Below, piece by piece: positions 1,817-41,277 of a DNA stretch of 64,000 bases. Positions within the stretch are counted from its first letter, which is position 1, and every line of letters begins with the position of its first letter. Location of the stretch: contig CACXKA010000004.1 in the NCBI GenBank assembly GCA_902768125.1, positions 181,406 through 245,405 of the forward strand, in the 5' to 3' direction. This stretch comes from an uncultured Bacteroidales bacterium. Its GTDB lineage: Bacteria; Bacteroidota; Bacteroidia; Bacteroidales; Bacteroidaceae. Position numbers and translations under genes: made by a program. The notes below the pieces were generated by a model. That model did no database searches and was not told where the DNA came from. It saw only the letters and a program-made list of their open reading frames with translations.

Positions 1817-4125
1817 GGTGACACATAGACGGAAGGACCTATGTAGGTGTTGCGAGGAATATCCTCCTTCGCCTCAGGATACTTCGCATGATACTGTGGG
1901 AAATTCTTGTCAGCCAGCACCTTGTCGATGAAGTAACCAAAAATGGGAAGGGCTGTACGACTTCCTTGTCCGAGGGCACTGGTACGGAAGTGGATGCAAC
2001 GATATTCACCACCTACCCAAGCACCTCCCACGAGATTGGGCGAACAACCCACAAACCAAGCATCGGAATGGTTGGAAGAAGTACCCGTCTTGCCTCCTAA
2101 CTCTGTGTCGTAGCAATGGATATACTCCCAAAGCGCCTGTGTGGTGCCTCCAGGCTCCTGCATACCAGCACGAAGCAGTCGTTGGAGGTAGAAGGCAGTC
2201 TTGTAGCGCATTGCAGCCTTAGGAGCAGGTTCGTCACGTTCGCAATCATAGACAACCTCTCCATTGCGATCCAGTATCTTGGTGACAAGAATGGGCTTGC
2301 GTTGCTTACCGTCATTCATGGCTGTGCAGTAAGCATCCACCAGTTCCAAAAGATTCACATCGGAAGAACCCAATGCCAAGGAAGGTGTGGCATCGAGCTT
2401 GCTCTGGATACCCATCTTATGGGCAATATCCACTACGTTGTCAATGCCTGTATCTTGTCCCAGTCGAACTGCAATCGTGTTGACCGATTGTGCAAAGGCT
2501 GACTTCAGCGGCATATTCGCTCCAGTGCAGTATCCACCAGAGTTGTGAGGCGTCCAAGTGACGAGACGCTGAGGGTCTTGTGCATCGGGCACTTGCAAAG
2601 AAATAAGTTGGTCACGATAACGTGTGGTGGGGGTGATGTTGTCGTCATTCTCAAAAGCTGAGGCATAGACAAAAAGCTTGAAAGTGGAACCAGGCTGACG
2701 CATCGAGGTCACCTTGTCGTACTTCCAACTGTTGAAATCGACATCGCCCACCCAAGCACGCACATAGCTCGTCTGGGGCTCCATCGCCACAAAGCCACAA
2801 TGCATGAATTTGACCATATAACGGATGGAATCCATCGTGCTCATCTCCTTCTCCACCAAGTGGTCAGGCTTGTTGTAATCAAAGACCTTCACCTTGTGAG
2901 GCAGGTTCATGTAGTAGTTGATGGAATCGGCATTATTGTCAAATTTCTTTGCCAGAATCTTGTAGTAATCGCTTCGGACGGCAATATCCTCGATGAAGTT
3001 GGGAATCTCCTGTCCACGTTCATCACGCCAAGGTGACTGACTGCCCCAATGACTGTTGAAGCGTTGCTGAATCTGGCGCATCTGTTTCTGCACAGCCTGT
3101 TCAGCATATCGCTGGAGACGAGTGTCGAGTGTCGTATAGATTTTGAGTCCATCAGAATACAAATCCATGTTGTTTGCCTGACACCACTCTTCCAGATAAT
3201 CCTTGATGGCTTCGCGGAAATAGAGCGCACCCCCATCGTAAGACTTCTCAACGGTATAGTTCAGGTTGATGGGTATCTGTGTCAGGGAATCCAATTCGCG
3301 ACGGGTCAACATATTGTGGGTGTACATATTGTTGAGCACCACATTTCGACGTTCAAGGCTGTTTTTGGGGTTGACCTTGGGGTTGTAGGTGGTGGTGGCT
3401 TTCAGGAGCCCTACGAGGACGGCAGCCTGCTCAGCGGTCAAGTTCTGAGGCGTAGTCTTGAAATAAGTCTTGGCAGCCGTCTTGATGCCAAAGGAATTAC
3501 TGCCAAAATCGACGGTATTGAGATAGAGCGTGAGGATGTCCTTCTTGCTATACATGTTCTCAATCTTGATGGCTGTGATCCATTCCTTCGACTTCATCAC
3601 CAAGATGCCCAATCCTGGCACCTTACCCAACAAGCCCGTAGAGTATTGGGAACGTATCTTGAAGAGATTTTTCACCAACTGCTGGGTGATGGTGCTGGCA
3701 CCACGAGGATTTCCCTTCACGACGTCCTTCATTGCAGCAAAGAGTCCTTGGTAGTCAATACCATGATGCTGATAGAAACGCTCGTCCTCTGTGGAAATCA
3801 AGGCATCAATCACATAAGGAGAAATCTCGTCAAACTTCACAGGAGAACGGTTCTCGTTGAAATACTTGCCAATCAACACGCTATCGGCGCTGTACACAAA
3901 AGAAGCGTCGTTGGTGACTGGATTCTGTATCACATCCATCGTTGGCGACACACCAAAGAGGCCGAGGAAGTTCACATCCACAGCACCCAAATAAAGAAAA
4001 ACAAGAACGAAGAATGAGGCGATGGGAGTCACTGTCTTCTGATACCACTTGCCTCTGTATTGGTTGACATACCAACGCCACACCAATTTCAAATATACCC
4101 ACGATTTATGCAACAAAGACTTCAT
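1780..4125 (-). CDS. mrcA: Penicillin-binding protein 1A (bifunctional transglycosylase/transpeptidase)
   Basis: This 781-residue class A PBP polymerises lipid II glycan strands and cross-links the peptides at the outer face of the inner membrane. A basic cytoplasmic tail is followed by one membrane anchor (about residues 33-50). The GT51 domain shows [15 protein letters not shown] with catalytic Glu113, and GASTITQQL. The transpeptidase domain shows S480-T-F-K483, S547-V-N549 and K679-T-G-T-S, so the three active-site motifs are intact. The C-terminus is short and Glu-rich. The gene follows miaA with a 20-bp overlap, so translation may be coupled. Its last codons lie in the stem of the convergent terminator. 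Confidence 0.95.
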
Positions 4126-34468: not shown

Positions 34469-35824
34469 ATGAAACAGATTTCTTTTTCTATCATTTGTGC
34501 CTTCTTCGTCTCTTTTGCCTACGCACAAGAAAACCTCAATTCTTCAGCACTTCAATCCTCCCATTCTCCTTGGAGCTTGCGCGAATGCATCGACTATGCC
34601 ATTGAGCACAACATCAGCATCAAAAAGCAAGAAATTAGCGTGAAGAACCAGGAGGTGTCGCTCAGCACCGCCAAGAACAGCCGATTGCCCAACTTGCAGG
34701 CATCAGCCAGCGAGAGTCTGGGCTTCGGACGTGGATTGACCAGCAACAACACTTACGCCAACCGCAACACACAAAGCACTTCCTTCAATCTCGGTTCCGA
34801 CGTGCCTCTTTACACGGGCGGGCAGATTTCCAATCAGATTCGACAAAACAAGCTCGAACTGGAAGCGGCACTTGCCAATCTCGAGAAAGCGAAGGAGGAC
34901 ATCAGCATGAAGGTGGCGTCGGCATACCTCGAAGCCGTCTATCAGAAAGACCTCGTGGCGGTGGCAGAACGACAGAAGGAACTGAGCCAAGCCCAGGCAC
35001 GCCGTGTGGAACTTCTCTTCCAGAACGGGAAAGTGTCGGAGACTGAACTGGCTGAAGCTAATTCTCACGTGGCAGCTGACGAACTCTCACTCACGCAACA
35101 GCAGAACTCCTGCATGCTTGCCCTGCTCGACCTCTCTCAGTTGCTCGAACTTCCCAGTCCCGAACAGTTCGACATCCAACAGCCAGAAATCATCGACCCA
35201 TCAGCCGTCATGCTCACGGTTCCCGATGCCATCTATGCAGAGGCACTCAACATCAAGCCGGAAATCCAATCCAGCAAGCTGAATGTGCAGAGTGCGGAGA
35301 GAGGAGTCCGCATCGCACAGGCTGGACACTACCCTTCCGTCCGCTTCTCCGCTGGCATGGGCAGCAACTACTACAAGACATCGGGCTTCAAAGCCGCTTC
35401 GTTTGGCAAACAAATGGATGACAACTTCAACCAGTCCCTCGGCATTTCCCTCTCCGTTCCCATCTTCAACCGCTTTGCCACCCGCAATGCTGTGCGCCAA
35501 GCCCGTCTGCAAGTAGCCAATCAACAGATGGTGCTCGAAGAGACCAAGAAGGCACTTTACAAGGAAATCCAACAGGCCTACTACAATGCCCTTGCTGCCC
35601 AGAAGCAATGCATCAGCAGCAATGCCGCCCTCGAGAGCAGCCAGACAGCTTTCAACCTCATGCAGAAGAAATATGAGAACGGCAAGGCTACAGCCACGGA
35701 ATATCAGGAGTCCAAGACGGCTCTCCAGAAAGCGGAAAGCACAGCCCTCCAATCCCGCTACACGTTCCTCTTCCGCCAGAAGATTCTGGAATTTTATCGT
35801 GGACGTCCGTTGGAAAAGGATTGA
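34469..35824 (+). CDS. TolC-family outer membrane efflux protein
   Basis: The protein has 451 residues. Signal peptide ends around FAYAQ. Two repeated coiled-coil halves are typical of OEP/TolC: SLRECIDYAIEHNISIKKQEISV opens the first, and KPEIQSSKLNVQSAERGVRIAQAGHYPSV opens the second. With the adaptor and the permeases it forms a tripartite export system across both membranes. Confidence 0.93.
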   Translation: MKQISFSIICAFFVSFAYAQENLNSSALQSSHSPWSLRECIDYAIEHNISIKKQEISVKNQEVSLSTAKNSRLPNLQASASESLGFGRGLTSNNTYANRNTQSTSFNLGSDVPLYTGGQISNQIRQNKLELEAALANLEKAKEDISMKVASAYLEAVYQKDLVAVAERQKELSQAQARRVELLFQNGKVSETELAEANSHVAADELSLTQQQNSCMLALLDLSQLLELPSPEQFDIQQPEIIDPSAVMLTVPDAIYAEALNIKPEIQSSKLNVQSAERGVRIAQAGHYPSVRFSAGMGSNYYKTSGFKAASFGKQMDDNFNQSLGISLSVPIFNRFATRNAVRQARLQVANQQMVLEETKKALYKEIQQAYYNALAAQKQCISSNAALESSQTAFNLMQKKYENGKATATEYQESKTALQKAESTALQSRYTFLFRQKILEFYRGRPLEKD

Positions 35825-35871
35825 TGTCGGCAACTTTTTTCTTCTAAAATCGCATTTTTTCTTGAAAAGTG

Positions 35872-35902
35872 TTGGTGGTTTCGGGAAAAGTGTGTACTTT
35901 TG
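35872..35902 (+). promoter_or_regulatory. Promoter of the Phe/Tyr operon
   Basis: TTG at 35872 and TACTTTTG at 35895 are spaced 20 bp. Transcription should begin about 35908, some 14 bp before the leader peptide ATG. The 35825-36099 gap is therefore fully explained by the promoter, leader peptide, antiterminator and terminator. Confidence 0.75.
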
Positions 35903-35921
35903 CAGCGAATTTGAAAGAAAG

Positions 35922-35978
35922 ATGAAATCATTGTTTAACGCATATTACTATTTTTACTTTTACTTTGGCAACGAGTAA
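35922..35978 (+). CDS. Leader peptide of the Phe/Tyr operon (attenuation)
   Basis: The 18-residue product is MKSLFNAYYYFYFYFGNE. Eight consecutive codons (35943-35966) read Y-Y-Y-F-Y-F-Y-F. In total there are five Tyr and four Phe, half of the peptide, directly in front of phenylalanine and tyrosine biosynthesis genes. The stop codon is immediately followed by GAGCGGG, which can pair with the 5' arm of the terminator at 36036. This is the classical arrangement of translation-coupled attenuation: stalling at scarce Tyr/Phe codons would free GAGCGGG to block the terminator. Function is inferred from layout only. Confidence 0.85.
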   Translation: MKSLFNAYYYFYFYFGNE

Positions 35979-36045
35979 GAGCGGGTAGTTATGTGTTCAA
36001 ATTGAGACAATGTGACAACAATAGTGAAACAATATAGCCCCGCTC
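35979..36045 (+). promoter_or_regulatory. Candidate antiterminator helix of the attenuator
   Basis: GAGCGGG (35979-35985) is complementary to CCCGCTC (36039-36045), part of the terminator 5' arm. The two structures are mutually exclusive. A ribosome at the leader stop would cover GAGCGGG and favour termination. Confidence 0.65.
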
Positions 36046-36063
36046 AGATGAGTGGGGCTTTTT
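36036..36063 (+). terminator. Attenuator terminator before pheA
   Basis: AGCCCCGCTCA pairs with TGAGTGGGGCT (11 bp, one G-T) across a minimal loop and is followed by TTTT. It lies 37 bp upstream of the pheA ATG and downstream of the leader ORF. Confidence 0.85.
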
Positions 36064-36099
36064 AGTGAGCACGACAAACAAATATACATTATATATAAT

Positions 36100-36951
36100 A
36101 TGAAAAGAGTTGCAATACAAGGAGAGGTGGGAAGTTACCACGACGTGGCAAGCCACTATTACTTCGAAGGCGAGGAGGTGGAACTTATCTGCTGCGACAC
36201 GTTCGAAGAGGTGTTCGAGGAGATGAAGAAGGACTCGAACGTGATTGGCATGGTGGCGATTGAGAACACCATCGCAGGTTCGTTGCTGCACAACTACGAA
36301 CTGTTGCGCGACAGCGGCATGCAGATTGTGGGCGAACATAAACTGCGCATCTCACACAGCATCATGTGCTTGCCTGAAGACAATTGGGAGGACATCACGG
36401 AGGTGAACTCTCACCCTGTGGCGCTGATGCAATGCCGAAACTTCCTGAAGCAGCATCCTCAGTTCAAGATTGTGGAGACCGACGACACGGCAGGTTCTGC
36501 CAAGAACATCAGCGAGAACGGACTGCGAGGTCATGCTGCCATCTGTTCCAAGTACGCTGCCCCACTCTACGGCATGAAGATTTTGCAGGAGGGCATCGAG
36601 ACGAACAAGCACAACTTCACGCGTTTCCTGATTGTGGCAGACCCTTGGCGGGCAGAGGAACTGAGTGTGCCCAGCAAGTCAAACAAGGCAAGCATCGTGT
36701 TCAGCCTTCCCCACAGCGAGGGCTCTCTCTCCCAAGTATTGAGCATCTTCTCTTTCTACAAGATCAACCTCACAAAGATTCAGTCGTTGCCTATCATCGG
36801 ACGGGAATGGGAATATATGTTCTACATCGACGTGATGTACGACGACTACACTCGTTACCGTCAGAGCATCGACGCCGTACGGCCGCTGACCAAGCAACTG
36901 AAAGTGTTGGGTGAATATGTGGAGGGAAAAAGCACCATCGAGAAAAATTAA
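36100..36951 (+). CDS. pheA: Prephenate dehydratase
   Basis: The protein has 283 residues and converts prephenate to phenylpyruvate. The catalytic domain starts VAIQGEVGSYHDVASHYYF and contains GMVAIENTIAGSLLHNYELL and TRFLIVAD. A C-terminal ACT domain (about 195-270: SLPHSEGSLSQVLSIFSFYKI, then IQSLPI) is the expected site of Phe feedback. No chorismate mutase domain is fused; that activity is in the third gene. It is the first gene of the operon and lies behind the attenuator. Confidence 0.94.
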   Translation: MKRVAIQGEVGSYHDVASHYYFEGEEVELICCDTFEEVFEEMKKDSNVIGMVAIENTIAGSLLHNYELLRDSGMQIVGEHKLRISHSIMCLPEDNWEDITEVNSHPVALMQCRNFLKQHPQFKIVETDDTAGSAKNISENGLRGHAAICSKYAAPLYGMKILQEGIETNKHNFTRFLIVADPWRAEELSVPSKSNKASIVFSLPHSEGSLSQVLSIFSFYKINLTKIQSLPIIGREWEYMFYIDVMYDDYTRYRQSIDAVRPLTKQLKVLGEYVEGKSTIEKN

Positions 36952-36956
36952 AAAAT

Positions 36957-38126
36957 ATGATACAACCAGCAGACAGATTATCGCTCGTAAGCGAATACTA
37001 CTTTTCAAGAAAACTCAAGGAGGTGGCAAAGCTGAACGCGGAGGGCAAGGACATCATCTCGCTCGCCATCGGTTCGCCCGACATGCCACCAAGTCCTGAA
37101 ACCATCGACGTGCTCTGTGAGAACGCTCATCGTCCTGATGCGCACGGCTACCAGCCTACAGTCGGCATTCCCGAACTGAGAAAGGCAATGGCCAATTTCT
37201 ACAAGCGTTGGTATGGCGTGGAACTCGATCCAGCCACAGAGATACAGCCACTCATCGGCAGCAAGGAGGGCATCCTGCACGTGACGTTGGCACTCTGCAA
37301 CCCTGGTGATAAGGTGTTGGTGCCCAATCCAGGTTATCCCACTTACACGTCGCTGAGCAAGATTCTCGGTCAGCAGATTGTGAACTACGACCTGATGGAG
37401 AGCAACGGTTGGCAGCCCGACTTCGAACAGTTGGAGGCGATGGACTTAAGCGGCGTGAAACTCATGTGGACGAACTATCCCAACATGCCGACTGGTGGAC
37501 GTGCCACTCGTGCGTTGTATGAGAAGATTGTAGCATTCGCCAAGAAGCACGACATCGTGGTGGTGAACGACAACCCCTACTCTTTCATCCTCAACCGCGA
37601 CGAGCATCTGAGCATCCTGCAAGTGCCAGGAGCGAAGGACTGCTGCATCGAATTCAATTCTATGTCGAAGAGCCACAACATGCCGGGATGGCGTGTGGGC
37701 ATGCTGGCAACGAACAGCACCTTCGTACAATGGATTCTGAAAATCAAGAGCAACATCGATTCCGGCACATTCCGTCCGCTGCAGTTGGCAGCCGCACAAG
37801 CTTACGAGAACTCGGAGGCTTGGCACACAAACGCCAACATCGAGACTTACGCTTCTCGTCGCAAGATTGCCGAGGACATCATGACCACCCTCGGATGCTC
37901 ATTCGACCCCACACAGCAAGGCATGTTCCTCTGGGGACGCATCCCCGACAGCATCGCCGATGTGGAAGACCTGACGGAGAAAGTGCTGCACGAAGCCCGC
38001 GTGTTCATCACTCCTGGCTTCATCTTCGGCAGCAACGGCAAGCGCTACATTCGCATCTCGCTTTGTGCCAAGGACGAAAAAATGGAATTGGCTTTGCAGA
38101 GAATAAAAGAAGTATTCAAGAACTAA
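36957..38126 (+). CDS. PLP-dependent aminotransferase (probable aromatic aminotransferase)
   Basis: The protein has 389 residues, fold type I class I/II. The PLP lysine is Lys238 in SMSKSHNMPGWRVG; the segment IGSPDMPPSPE is the N-terminal substrate region, and Asn205-x-x-Tyr208 stacks the cofactor. The sequence recalls LL-diaminopimelate aminotransferase relatives, but its place between pheA and the DAHP synthase gene suggests that it transaminates phenylpyruvate and 4-hydroxyphenylpyruvate. The start is 5 bp after pheA. Confidence 0.9.
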   Translation: MIQPADRLSLVSEYYFSRKLKEVAKLNAEGKDIISLAIGSPDMPPSPETIDVLCENAHRPDAHGYQPTVGIPELRKAMANFYKRWYGVELDPATEIQPLIGSKEGILHVTLALCNPGDKVLVPNPGYPTYTSLSKILGQQIVNYDLMESNGWQPDFEQLEAMDLSGVKLMWTNYPNMPTGGRATRALYEKIVAFAKKHDIVVVNDNPYSFILNRDEHLSILQVPGAKDCCIEFNSMSKSHNMPGWRVGMLATNSTFVQWILKIKSNIDSGTFRPLQLAAAQAYENSEAWHTNANIETYASRRKIAEDIMTTLGCSFDPTQQGMFLWGRIPDSIADVEDLTEKVLHEARVFITPGFIFGSNGKRYIRISLCAKDEKMELALQRIKEVFKN

Positions 38127-38151: not shown

Positions 38152-39216
38152 ATGGAACTCGATTTACAACCCCTGAATTTGCCGAGCGACAACGAACGTC
38201 CGTTCGTGATTGCCGGCCCATGCTCCGCCGAGACTGAGGAGCAAGTGATGCAAACTGCCCGTGAACTGGCGATGAAAGGTTGCCACAACTTCCGTGCTGG
38301 TGTGTGGAAACCCCGCACCAAACCCGGAGGCTTTGAAGGTCACGGAGAGAAGGCGCTGCCTTGGATGAAGCAGGTGAAGGAAGAGACGCACATGCTTATC
38401 TCCACCGAGGTGGCAACGCCTGAGCACGTGGAGCTGGCATTGAAATACGACATGGACATCCTCTGGGTGGGCGCCCGCACGACTGCCAACCCCTTCGCGG
38501 TGCAGGCATTGGCTGATGCGCTGAAAGGTGTGGACGTGCCAGTGTTCGTGAAGAACCCAGTGAATCCTGACATCGAATTGTGGATTGGTGCTTTGGAGCG
38601 TATCAACCAGGCAGGCGTGAAGCGTATGGGTGCCATCCACCGCGGTTTCTCCAGCTACGAGCAGAAGATATACCGCAATGCACCTATGTGGCAGATTCCT
38701 ATCGAGCTGCATCGTCGCATTCCTAACCTGCCTATCATCTGTGACCCCTCCCACATCGGTGGTCGTCGCGAACTGATTGCCCCACTCTGTCAGCAGTCAA
38801 TGGACTTGGGTTTCGACGGACTCATCGTGGAGGCTCATTGCGATCCCGACAAGGCATGGAGCGATGCCAAGCAGCAGGTCACTCCTGAGGTGCTCGACTA
38901 CATCCTCTCCCTGCTCATCATCCGCGACGAGCACACAACCACCGAAGGTCTGACAAGCCTTCGCAAGCAGATTGACGAACTGGACAACCAGCTCATGGAC
39001 ATCCTTGCCAAGCGTATGAGAGTGTGCCGCGAGATTGGTCACTACAAGAAGGAGCACAACATGACCGTGCTTCAGGCTGTGCGCTACAACGAGATTCTCT
39101 CGAAGCGTGGCGTGCAAGGTTCTCTCTGTGGCATGAGCCCTGACTTCGTGGCAAAGGTCTTCGAGAGCATCCACGAGGAGAGTGTGCATCAGCAGATTGA
39201 AATCATCAATAAGTAA
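38152..39216 (+). CDS. Bifunctional DAHP synthase / chorismate mutase
   Basis: The protein has 354 residues. The N-terminal DAHP synthase (about 1-260) has GPCSAETEEQV, WKPRTKPGGFEG and PIICDPSHIGGRREL. The C-terminal AroQ-type chorismate mutase (about 268-350) has LRKQIDELDNQLMDILAKRM. This fusion links the first step of the shikimate pathway with the branch step towards Phe and Tyr, and is known from Bacteroidetes and some Firmicutes. The gene is third in the operon. Confidence 0.94.
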   Translation: MELDLQPLNLPSDNERPFVIAGPCSAETEEQVMQTARELAMKGCHNFRAGVWKPRTKPGGFEGHGEKALPWMKQVKEETHMLISTEVATPEHVELALKYDMDILWVGARTTANPFAVQALADALKGVDVPVFVKNPVNPDIELWIGALERINQAGVKRMGAIHRGFSSYEQKIYRNAPMWQIPIELHRRIPNLPIICDPSHIGGRRELIAPLCQQSMDLGFDGLIVEAHCDPDKAWSDAKQQVTPEVLDYILSLLIIRDEHTTTEGLTSLRKQIDELDNQLMDILAKRMRVCREIGHYKKEHNMTVLQAVRYNEILSKRGVQGSLCGMSPDFVAKVFESIHEESVHQQIEIINK

Positions 39217-39339: not shown

Positions 39340-40113
39340 ATGAAGATACTGATATTAGGTGCAGGCAAGATGGGGTCGTTCTTCACCGACCTGCTGTCGT
39401 TCGACCACGAGGTGGCTGTGTACGACATCGACCCCAAGCGACTCCGCTTCATGTACAACACCCAGCGGTTCACATCGTTGGAAGAGATTGACGCCTTCGA
39501 GCCAGAACTGGTCATCAATGCCGTCAGCCTCAAGTACACGCTGCAAGTGTTCGACCAGGTGATTCCCCACCTTCCCAAGTCATGCATCCTCTCCGACATC
39601 TCGTCGGTGAAGACAGGCTTCAAGGAGTACTACGAGGCAAGCGGATTCCACTATGTGAGCACGCACCCCATGTTCGGTCCCACCTTTGCCAACCTCGGCA
39701 AGCTGAGCGACGAGAACGCCATCATCATCAATGAGGGCGACTACATGGGACGCTGCTTCTTCAAGGACCTCTACTCTCGTCTGGGTCTCAACATCTTCGA
39801 ATACACCTTCGAGGAGCACGACCAGACTGTGGCATACTCGCTCTCCATCCCCTTCATCAGCACGTTCGCCTTTGCAGCCGTGATGAAGCATCAGGATGCG
39901 CCCGGCACCACCTTCAAGCGTCACATGAAGATAGCCAAGGGCGTGCTCTCCGAGGACGACACGCTGCTCAGGGAAATCCTCTTCAACCCCTACACCAAGG
40001 GACAGGTGGAGCAAATCCGCAAGGAGATGAAGGAAATCATCGAGATCATCGACACCCGCGACGAGGAGCACATGCAGCAGTACCTGACGAAGATACGCAA
40101 GAACATCAAGTAA
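39340..40113 (+). CDS. tyrA: Prephenate dehydrogenase
   Basis: The protein has 257 residues. It begins MKILILGAGKMGSFFTDLL, an NAD(P)-binding Rossmann motif with GAGKMG, followed by YDIDPKRL. SDISSVKTGFKEYY and STHPMFGPTFANL match the TyrA catalytic region, in which the conserved His (STHPMFGP) contacts the substrate. It oxidises prephenate to 4-hydroxyphenylpyruvate. No ACT domain is visible. It completes the operon, which ends at the terminator at 40126. Confidence 0.93.
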   Translation: MKILILGAGKMGSFFTDLLSFDHEVAVYDIDPKRLRFMYNTQRFTSLEEIDAFEPELVINAVSLKYTLQVFDQVIPHLPKSCILSDISSVKTGFKEYYEASGFHYVSTHPMFGPTFANLGKLSDENAIIINEGDYMGRCFFKDLYSRLGLNIFEYTFEEHDQTVAYSLSIPFISTFAFAAVMKHQDAPGTTFKRHMKIAKGVLSEDDTLLREILFNPYTKGQVEQIRKEMKEIIEIIDTRDEEHMQQYLTKIRKNIK

Positions 40114-40494: not shown

Positions 40495-40535
40495 ACGCCT
40501 CCACTCCCCTAATCTTCAGAGTTGGAGGCGTTTTT
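40495..40535 (+). terminator. Rho-independent terminator
   Basis: ACGCCTCCA pairs with TGGAGGCGT (9 bp) around a 19-nt loop and is followed by T4. Confidence 0.85.
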
Positions 40536-40569
40536 ATACTCCTTCCCAAACTTTTTTTCTTTGTATTTA

Positions 40570-40602
40570 TTTGGTAATATCGAAAGAAATGTAGTATCTT
40601 TG
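40570..40602 (+). promoter_or_regulatory. Promoter of the vapBC-like module
   Basis: TTTG (40570-40573) and TATCTTTG (40595-40602) with a 21-bp spacer. The antitoxin ATG is at 40627. Confidence 0.75.
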
Positions 40603-40626
40603 CATCGAATAATCATTATTGCAAGT

Positions 40627-40875
40627 ATGGTAGGAACACTTAACGTAAGCGATGTTTACATGGACATGCTTGGCACATTGCCTGGCGAAGATAAGCTTGA
40701 CTTGATTTCCAAGCTTGTCAAGTCTATGAAGAAAGCTGTCACGCCCAAGGTGGAGACGAAGGACATCTTCGCCTGCTTCTCTACTGACTGGGGCGGAGAC
40801 ATGAGCACAGAGGACTATGCCGACATGTTGCGTAGTGAGAATATTGAAAGTACACGAACTGTAGAAACTTGGTAA
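40627..40875 (+). CDS. Antitoxin of a vapBC-like module
   Basis: The protein has 82 residues. It begins VGTLNVSDVYMDMLGTLPGEDKLDLISKLVKSM, a form seen next to PIN toxins in Bacteroidales, and its acidic C-terminus probably binds the toxin. The spacing to the toxin gene is 6 bp. A longer upstream frame crosses the promoter and is rejected. Confidence 0.8.
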   Translation: MVGTLNVSDVYMDMLGTLPGEDKLDLISKLVKSMKKAVTPKVETKDIFACFSTDWGGDMSTEDYADMLRSENIESTRTVETW

Positions 40876-40881
40876 ACGACG

Positions 40882-41277
40882 ATGGCAAAATATCTGCTTG
40901 ACACTTGTACGTGCATTTCCATGTTTCGGAATGAGGGTCGCGTCCGCGAAACCCTCCGTCGTGTAGGCACCAAAAACTGCTACATCTCGGAAATCACTGT
41001 GGCAGAACTCTATTTTGGATTGGCAAAGGCTGAGGACAAAAAGCGCAAGCTTGATGACATTCACAATGTGCAGCGTCTTTTTCGTGTCATTCCTGCTTAT
41101 TCTTCATTCAAGGAATACGGTGAAATCCGCAAGTCACTTGAACATACAGGTCAACGAGTGGATCAATTTGACCTGCTGATTGGTGCCACAGCTTTACATC
41201 ACAAGATAACGCTTGTTACTTCCAATCTCAAACACTTTGAACGAATGCAAGGTATTGAGATTGAAAATTGGAAATAA
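40882..41277 (+). CDS. PIN-domain toxin (VapC-like)
   Basis: The protein has 131 residues. PIN active-site acids are Asp7 (YLLDTCTCI), Glu42 (TVAELYFGLA), Asp94 or Asp97 (VDQFDLLIGATA) and a conserved TSN at 113-115. Such proteins are Mg-dependent RNases; here the target is unknown. The gene is paired with the preceding antitoxin. Confidence 0.92.
   Translation: MAKYLLDTCTCISMFRNEGRVRETLRRVGTKNCYISEITVAELYFGLAKAEDKKRKLDDIHNVQRLFRVIPAYSSFKEYGEIRKSLEHTGQRVDQFDLLIGATALHHKITLVTSNLKHFERMQGIEIENWK

Follow-up and report, generated by a model that had tools for sequence, protein, structure and literature searches.

The pheA operon of an uncultured Bacteroidales bacterium is preceded by what is very probably (we put the probability at about 0.9) a ribosome-mediated transcription attenuator that reads both charged tRNA-Phe and charged tRNA-Tyr. 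The element lies in a stretch of 64,000 nucleotides, here called the window, and consists of a promoter, a short open reading frame (ORF) with eight consecutive Tyr/Phe codons, and RNA segments that can form either an antiterminator or a terminator in front of pheA. From its architecture, its predicted folds and its conservation, we infer ribosome stalling, coupling and switching in the cell.

Architecture of the pheA leader

All features of the element lie on the plus strand, as does the last gene of the preceding operon, an efflux gene that ends at 35824. The promoter (35872..35902) comprises TTG at 35872-35874 and TACTTTTG at 35895-35902, spaced by 20 nt, which we take to be of the Bacteroidetes -33/-7 type. 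Promoter elements at -7 and -33 are mentioned in passages of PMC7366714. The leader ORF, MKSLFNAYYYFYFYFGNE, begins with an ATG at 35922 and has 18 codons and a TAA that ends at 35978 (35922..35978). Upstream of its start the sequence is A-rich and without a Shine-Dalgarno (SD)-like sequence; an SD-like 4-mer is likewise present in only 4 of 82 related leaders. In both the sequence and our alignment of related leaders (A1), the eight regulatory codons, Tyr-Tyr-Tyr-Phe-Tyr-Phe-Tyr-Phe, are consecutive and occupy 35943..35966.

These codons overlap region 1 (35937..35967), the protector arm of the centroid structure. Region 2 (35972..35997) can pair with region 1, as a protector hairpin, or with region 3, as an antiterminator; the latter pairing runs through GAGCGGG (35979-35985), which starts at the base next to the leader stop codon. 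Region 3 (36036..36045), the 5' arm of the terminator, contains the alternative partner CCCGCTC (36039-36045), and the fold assigns the terminator 3' arm and T-run to region 4 (36050..36063). The terminator itself, AGCCCCGCTC-AGAT-GAGTGGGGCT (36036-36059) followed by TTTT to 36063, has a stem of 10 bp, and 36 nt separate its T-run from the pheA ATG at 36100.

By Pfam, pheA (36100..36951) encodes a prephenate dehydratase (PDT); its best NCBIfam match, NF008865 (prephenate dehydratase), scored 206.4 bits against a cut-off of 219. It is followed by a class I/II aminotransferase (36957..38126; Aminotran_1_2), a DAHP synthase fused to chorismate mutase (38152..39216; DAHP_synth_1 and CM_2) and the prephenate dehydrogenase gene tyrA (39340..40113; PDH_N, the nucleotide-binding domain). 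An initial annotation of this DNA had described a two-box promoter, a leader peptide with eight Tyr/Phe codons at exactly these positions, a GAGCGGG directly after its stop that is complementary to CCCGCTC in a terminator, and downstream genes of Phe and Tyr synthesis, and we recovered every one of these. The terminator is also present before pheA as described, except that its stem and its distance from pheA, given there as 11 bp and 37 bp, are each shorter by one.

Folding of the window leader and the proposed mechanism

The window leader RNA folds with -44.1 kcal/mol (z -3.55) and beats 200 of 200 shuffles. The best fold of the full-length leader consists of two hairpins, region 1 with region 2 and the terminator. 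When the transcript was ended before the terminator 3' arm, region 2 paired with region 3 (GAGCGGG:CCCGCUC and further pairs; z -2.55, with 2 of 200 shuffles as good). Together, the two folds indicate the three mutually exclusive pairings (1:2, 2:3 and 3:4) of a classic attenuator. The initial annotation had read the layout as one of attenuation; comparison with relatives supports that reading, although only two of the three pairings were described and the 1:2 protector hairpin was missed. Features by which an attenuator is judged are present in the window: a leader ORF coded for the product of the operon, an intrinsic terminator, an antiterminator that shares the terminator 5' arm, a 1:2 protector over the control codons, and a region 2 that a ribosome at the stop codon would mask.

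We propose that a ribosome closely follows RNA polymerase along the leader. When Phe- or Tyr-tRNA is short, the ribosome would stall in the Tyr/Phe run and cover region 1, leaving region 2 free for region 3, so that no terminator would form. With the antiterminator in place, pheA and the genes for the aminotransferase, the DAHP synthase/chorismate mutase and TyrA would be transcribed. When both tRNAs are plentiful, the ribosome would reach the stop codon, which abuts region 2, and cover region 2, allowing the 3:4 terminator to form. Without a ribosome, the 1:2 hairpin of the window leader would hold region 2, and termination would be expected in this state too.

Conservation and covariation among near relatives

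Our near set comprised 110 pheA loci (30 + 80, from partly overlapping genomes and with the window locus included), 109 of which had at least 200 nt of upstream sequence; the other (L051) was cut short. Four or more consecutive Tyr/Phe codons stand 5' of pheA at 108 of these 109 loci, the exception being L065. A leader with at least six Tyr/Phe among eight codons was likewise present at 108 of 109, against 0.1% of shuffles. The 109 loci yielded 84 distinct upstream regions, of which 83 were processed and 68 non-redundant ones aligned (A1). One near locus, L056 (CADAVL010000052.1), is titled Ruminococcaceae and has a leader and a pheA 89% identical to that of the window; its contig is probably misbinned.

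Across the 68 leaders, 95.0% of the cells of the 2:3 antiterminator are paired and 28 cells carry changes in both partners, values that 0 of 500 shuffles reached. A single clade-wide GC-to-AU switch accounts for 27 of the 28 double-changed cells. The remaining one is found in L022, where arm 2 carries G->A and arm 3 a compensatory C->T, with arm 4 unchanged. Two of the five covariation measures for the antiterminator were unexceptional: 8 of 500 shuffles had as many pairs changed on both sides, and 500 of 500 as many pair types. For the terminator, 95.7% of cells are paired and 68 cells are double-changed, again more than in any of 500 shuffles; its pair count was equalled in 51 of 500 shuffles and its type count in 15 of 500.

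We also compared each leader's own arm 2:arm 3 pairing with that of swapped arms. Own arms gave a mean of -21.4 kcal/mol and swapped arms -18.9 kcal/mol, with 0 of 200 swaps as good, a result that kinship inflates; inside each of two subgroups 0 of 500 swaps were as good, and kinship inflates this result as well. Weak spots among the near relatives are the short T-runs of L011 and L040 and the poor 2:3 pairing of L024, L071, L097 and L104. The conservation for which the initial annotation had proposed to look in close relatives was found, in that the ORF, the antiterminator pairing and the terminator are kept, with compensatory changes.

Modelled ribosome states

To model the ribosome, we masked a 28-nt footprint in folds of the 68 aligned leaders. 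For the window leader, the modelled antiterminator probability was 0.99 with the ribosome stalled, 0.00 with the ribosome at the stop codon and 0.17 without a ribosome. In the model, the window leader thus acts like a classic attenuator in all three states. With the ribosome stalled in the run, the antiterminator probability over the 68 leaders was 0.94-0.98 and exceeded 0.5 in 68 of 68; with arm 2 covered, it was 0.00.

The aligned leaders have two layouts, in which the stop codon lies either just 5' of arm 2, as in the window, or past it (the Phocaeicola type, ...FYFSNEVKREFVCVR). A leader of the long layout, MKALYNTYFFFFYYFYFSNKVKREFVCVR, occurs in the type strain Phocaeicola vulgatus ATCC 8482 (L092; NC_009614.1, about 2675402-2675491, minus strand). 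When the ribosome was placed at the stop codon, the mean antiterminator probability was 0.00 for the window layout (35 of 68 leaders). In the 33 distal-stop leaders, the stop codon is 21-36 nt past arm 2, which stays unmasked, and the probability was 0.87. This value indicates that masking at the stop does not explain the distal-stop layout, in which a ribosome crossing arm 2 during the synthesis of region 4 would have to act.

Without a ribosome, the antiterminator probability averaged 0.58 over the 68 leaders, which predicts termination by default in the absence of translation for part of the leaders only. It exceeded 0.5 in 41 of 68, a sign that the 1:2 hairpin does not protect region 2 in all leaders. 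This hairpin is a consensus structure within each of two subgroups of the aligned leaders, and RNAalifold over all 68 together returned no 1:2 hairpin.

Distribution in the family, order and class

In the family, a strict motif matched 127 of 251 genomes and 18 of 27 genera, and the reversed control gave no match. A covariance model (R1) matched 120 of 247 order genomes at E <= 0.01; the weak tail of these matches resembles bare terminators, and many span only model positions of about 65-148. We fetched 80 R1 loci with up to 6 kb of downstream sequence, and tblastn detected one or more of the four operon genes at 75 of them. None of the four was found by tblastn at the other five (L272, L278, L280, L281 and L282), of which L272 and L281 reach contig ends and L281 has a tyrA-like gene by eye.

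To offset the bias of R1, we searched for pheA itself in as many order genomes (247); 109 had a match, and most of the places that were new to our set were fetched. Over both sets combined, a leader (an ORF of 8-48 amino acids, at most 450 nt upstream, with at least six Tyr/Phe in eight codons) was present at 95 of 105 pheA loci in the order, against 0.5% of 4200 shuffles; the other 10 fell under the six-of-eight threshold. A search of the class yielded pheA in 45 of 158 genomes, six of them of the window's own order. In the other orders, leaders were present at 19 of 38 pheA loci, against 0.3% of 1520 shuffles, and 19 of 38 fell under the threshold. R1 matched 18 of 60 class genomes at E <= 0.001, all matches outside the window's family being weak (best 1e-6); two weak ones (G528 and G547) lie directly 5' of pheA. 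The order and class counts place the element well beyond Prevotellaceae, with about half of the class loci lacking a recognisable one. The initial annotation had proposed a comparison within Prevotellaceae; the range is wider than that.

Beyond the 19, three pheA loci of the other orders (L291, L307 and L308) have leaders that mix Trp with Tyr/Phe (MKLTQTYFWFYPTLSTGG, MQLLNTYFWFYPSPETGG and MLFICLYSGYFCWFCQ, by eye) and may sense all three aromatic amino acids. At L341, in a genome of 1.2 Mb (G356), the operon of pheA, aminotransferase, DAHP synthase and tyrA is complete and is preceded by no recognisable leader (4 of 8 at best); the attenuator has possibly been lost there.

We next scored the best arm 2/arm 3 helix, with a threshold of at least 14, between the 45 nt 3' of the run and the terminator 5' arm. 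This covered 153 leader ORFs with 5 or more of 8 Tyr/Phe codons from the order and class, some few of them overlapping or spurious. The threshold was reached by 130 of 153 leaders, compared with 10% of shuffled and 39% of swapped arms, and, with one leader per locus, by 107 of 118, compared with 10% and 49%. The 130 pairing leaders contain 99 different arm-2 motifs. In 131 of the 153, the helix starts 8-19 nt past the final Tyr/Phe codon of the stretch richest in such codons.

Leader codons and operon content

We defined a pheA-alone locus as one with none of the other three operon genes within about 5-6 kb. Where such loci have a leader with at least 6 of 8 Tyr/Phe codons, it is Phe-only in 5 of 5 cases (L259, L260, L275, L355 and L360, from three families). 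In contrast, where pheA is accompanied by one or more of the other three genes, 109 of 109 such leaders contain Tyr; DAHP synthase or tyrA was seen at 105 of these loci and the aminotransferase only at 4. Fisher's test of Tyr absence against operon content gave p 7e-9, with kinship ignored. A sixth pheA-alone locus (L354) has a weaker leader (5 of 8) with one Tyr, and no such leader was found at at least four others (L342, L343, L374 and L375).

At seven loci (L208, L209, L211, L242, L243, L248 and L276), a leader precedes other genes and no pheA was seen; L258, with a pheA-like gene 4.3 kb downstream, was placed outside this set. The mean Tyr fraction is 0.64 at the seven and 0.43 for the 109 (p 1e-4, kinship ignored). 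Adding L281 (Tyr fraction 0.33) gives 0.60 for eight loci (p 1e-3, again with kinship ignored). One genome, G054, has both kinds of leader: MTRFFTHFFFFFTQQ ahead of pheA (L259), and MNNTFGYYAFYYYFFYNN ahead of a tyrA-like gene with DAHP synthase (L242). In these sequences, leader codons track operon content, in line with joint sensing of Tyr and Phe; the suggestion of the initial annotation that one leader senses both fits this link.

Alternative explanations

The leader peptide could itself act as a nascent-chain arrest peptide, of which TnaC is an example, responding to free Phe or Tyr in the ribosome and not to a lack of charged tRNA. The codons that close the run, TTTTACTTT, are nearly invariant in the 68 aligned leaders, which could mean fixed peptide contacts. 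However, these codons are near-constant because they are paired with region 2, and this counts against an arrest peptide, as do two further findings: leaders across the order and class differ in length, in position and in the order of Y and F, and the amino acid identity of the leader follows the product of the operon. We consider an arrest peptide very unlikely, and favour stalling at codons whose charged tRNA is short.

It is extremely improbable, in our judgement, that the hairpin is a constant terminator and nothing more, such as one that ends the efflux operon upstream, and the Y/F ORF a product of chance in T-rich intergenic DNA. The hairpin does lie 3' of the efflux gene on the same strand, and Tyr/Phe codons are T-rich. 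Moreover, the six-codon pattern TWYx6, which corresponds exactly to Tyr/Phe codons, has 13 matches in the whole genome, fewer than the 25 of the reversed control; the pheA leader accounts for three overlapping matches and is the sole site with eight codons in a row. Six-codon Tyr/Phe runs not being rare in this genome, it is run length, place and context that count, and not short runs alone. A constant terminator accords poorly with the promoter between the efflux gene and the leader; 79 of 82 related leaders have TAnnTTTG at most 75 nt 5' of their ATG. Such a terminator accords no better with antiterminator pairing that persists despite sequence change, or with codons that follow operon content. 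An ORF of 8-48 amino acids with at least six Tyr/Phe in eight codons occurred 5' of pheA in only 0.1-0.5% of shuffled upstream regions, and we rejected a chance ORF on this ground.

Equally implausible is a protein or small RNA that binds a conserved AGCGGG/TATGTG segment and makes the ORF accessory: AGCGGG is present in 82 of 82 processed near sequences (L022, with AGCAGG, and L065 are outside this set) and TATGTG is frequent in the 68-leader alignment, but the arm-2:arm-3 variants outside the family include GACGGG:CCCGTC, GGTGGGAT:ATCCCACC, AGGGCTT:AAGCCCT and GGGGCTGG:CCAGCCCC, among others, and because arm 2 varies with pairing kept, a binding site was rejected as the sole cause of AGCGGG conservation.

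Relation to known systems

No Rfam family matched the leader region above its cut-off, and we rejected a known Rfam family for the pheA leader because none matched at gathering score. Up to E 1, only Leu_leader, Phe_leader and Thr_leader (19-21 bits) matched within 35850-36100; these sub-threshold matches are a resemblance of kind, not membership. The enterobacterial pheA attenuator (pheL; RF01859 Phe_leader) shares with the window leader a short Phe-rich ORF, exclusive hairpins and a terminator before pheA, and its closest parallel is provided by the Phe-only leaders of the five pheA-alone loci above. RF01859 scored 21.1 bits against the window leader (E 0.22), below its gathering cut-off of 55, a score that does not establish homology. 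PheL of E. coli is Phe-only; unlike pheL, the window leader has Tyr codons, Tyr-pathway genes in its operon and no SD-like site.

The leader-peptide attenuators of trp, his, leu and thr operons share the logic of 1:2, 2:3 and 3:4 pairing. The whole-model matches of RF00512 Leu_leader (21.3 bits) and RF00506 Thr_leader (19 bits) are below the curated scores of 50 and 55, and these attenuators differ from the window leader in phylum and in codons. T-box riboswitches, found in Firmicutes, sense tRNA charging 5' of amino-acid genes. Here, by contrast, the codons sit in a short ORF; the window gave no T-box match at gathering score, nor did 35850-36100 with the limit relaxed to E 1.

The nearest published observations, in the same phylum and before the same gene, are the structured 5' regions of Flavobacterium psychrophilum, including those before pheA and hisG, in the available portions of PMC9723704. 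These portions offer clues for leader-peptide attenuation at flavobacterial amino-acid operons; they present neither the sequence of a leader nor Tyr/Phe codons, and no antiterminator or distribution farther afield. Small ORFs reminiscent of leader peptides in B. thetaiotaomicron appear in passages of PMC7366714, the main text of which does not contain the words phenylalanine, tyrosine or prephenate; a passage of PMC4833913 cites Lopatovskaya et al. 2010 (Mol Biol 44:128). A search by titles and the starts of abstracts, with most subscription papers outside it, returned no paper on a Bacteroidales pheA leader. The pheA leader is very probably an attenuator of known type, widespread in the class, with flavobacterial hints already in print.

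Other leaders and tandem units

In the same genome, the trp operon carries a leader, MTQTFNAYWWWRSLGFKKS* (with WWW), and a terminator before trpB (minus strand, L382 at about 3320-3540; G000:C24:11317-11539). The operon was identified through trpE by Pfam model and trpB and trpG by eye, and its leader has FNAY in common with the pheA leader. All 37 genomes of the genus, this one among them, matched the 223-nt trp leader region, some of them in part; of the 30 genus loci that were fetched, with that of this genome counted, 21 have a YWWW leader. By eye, no leaders were seen before hisG and ilvD of this genome.

Some loci appear to carry two leader-terminator units in tandem. Our script reported 27 of 118 leader loci, and about 24 were left after we removed three by eye: L210 and L257, where a spurious hairpin falls within the leader, and L273, where the same terminator had been listed twice. 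Both units are Tyr/Phe-coded; examples before pheA include L216, L222, L227, L229, L234, L240, L245, L249, L255 and L265. The run of the second tandem leader ends in YFM at L216, L222, L227, L228, L229, L234, L249 and L255.

Elsewhere in the window, 51377-51446 matches Rfam RF04319, the Bacteroidetes FopS sRNA (74.5 bits), and 40522-41277 holds two small adjacent ORFs, the second of which, by eye, presumably resembles the PIN-domain toxin of a VapBC pair.

Implications

Ribosome-mediated attenuation requires a ribosome that starts early and stays close behind RNA polymerase, and start sites in Bacteroidota are usually without SD sequences. The attenuator therefore bears on the extent of transcription-translation coupling in Bacteroidota. 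As a conserved Phe/Tyr attenuator is present in culturable gut species, such as P. vulgatus ATCC 8482, this coupling can be tested directly with a reporter, and the link between leader codons and operon content offers a natural experiment on the evolution of a sensor. On balance, we lean slightly toward a wider view, in which SD-free leader-peptide attenuation is the ancestral control of aromatic amino-acid synthesis across Bacteroidia, its codon mix evolving with operon content and tandem duplication having produced two-stage units in several families. If this is true, ancestral attenuation without SD sequences would demonstrate tight transcription-translation coupling in the phylum.
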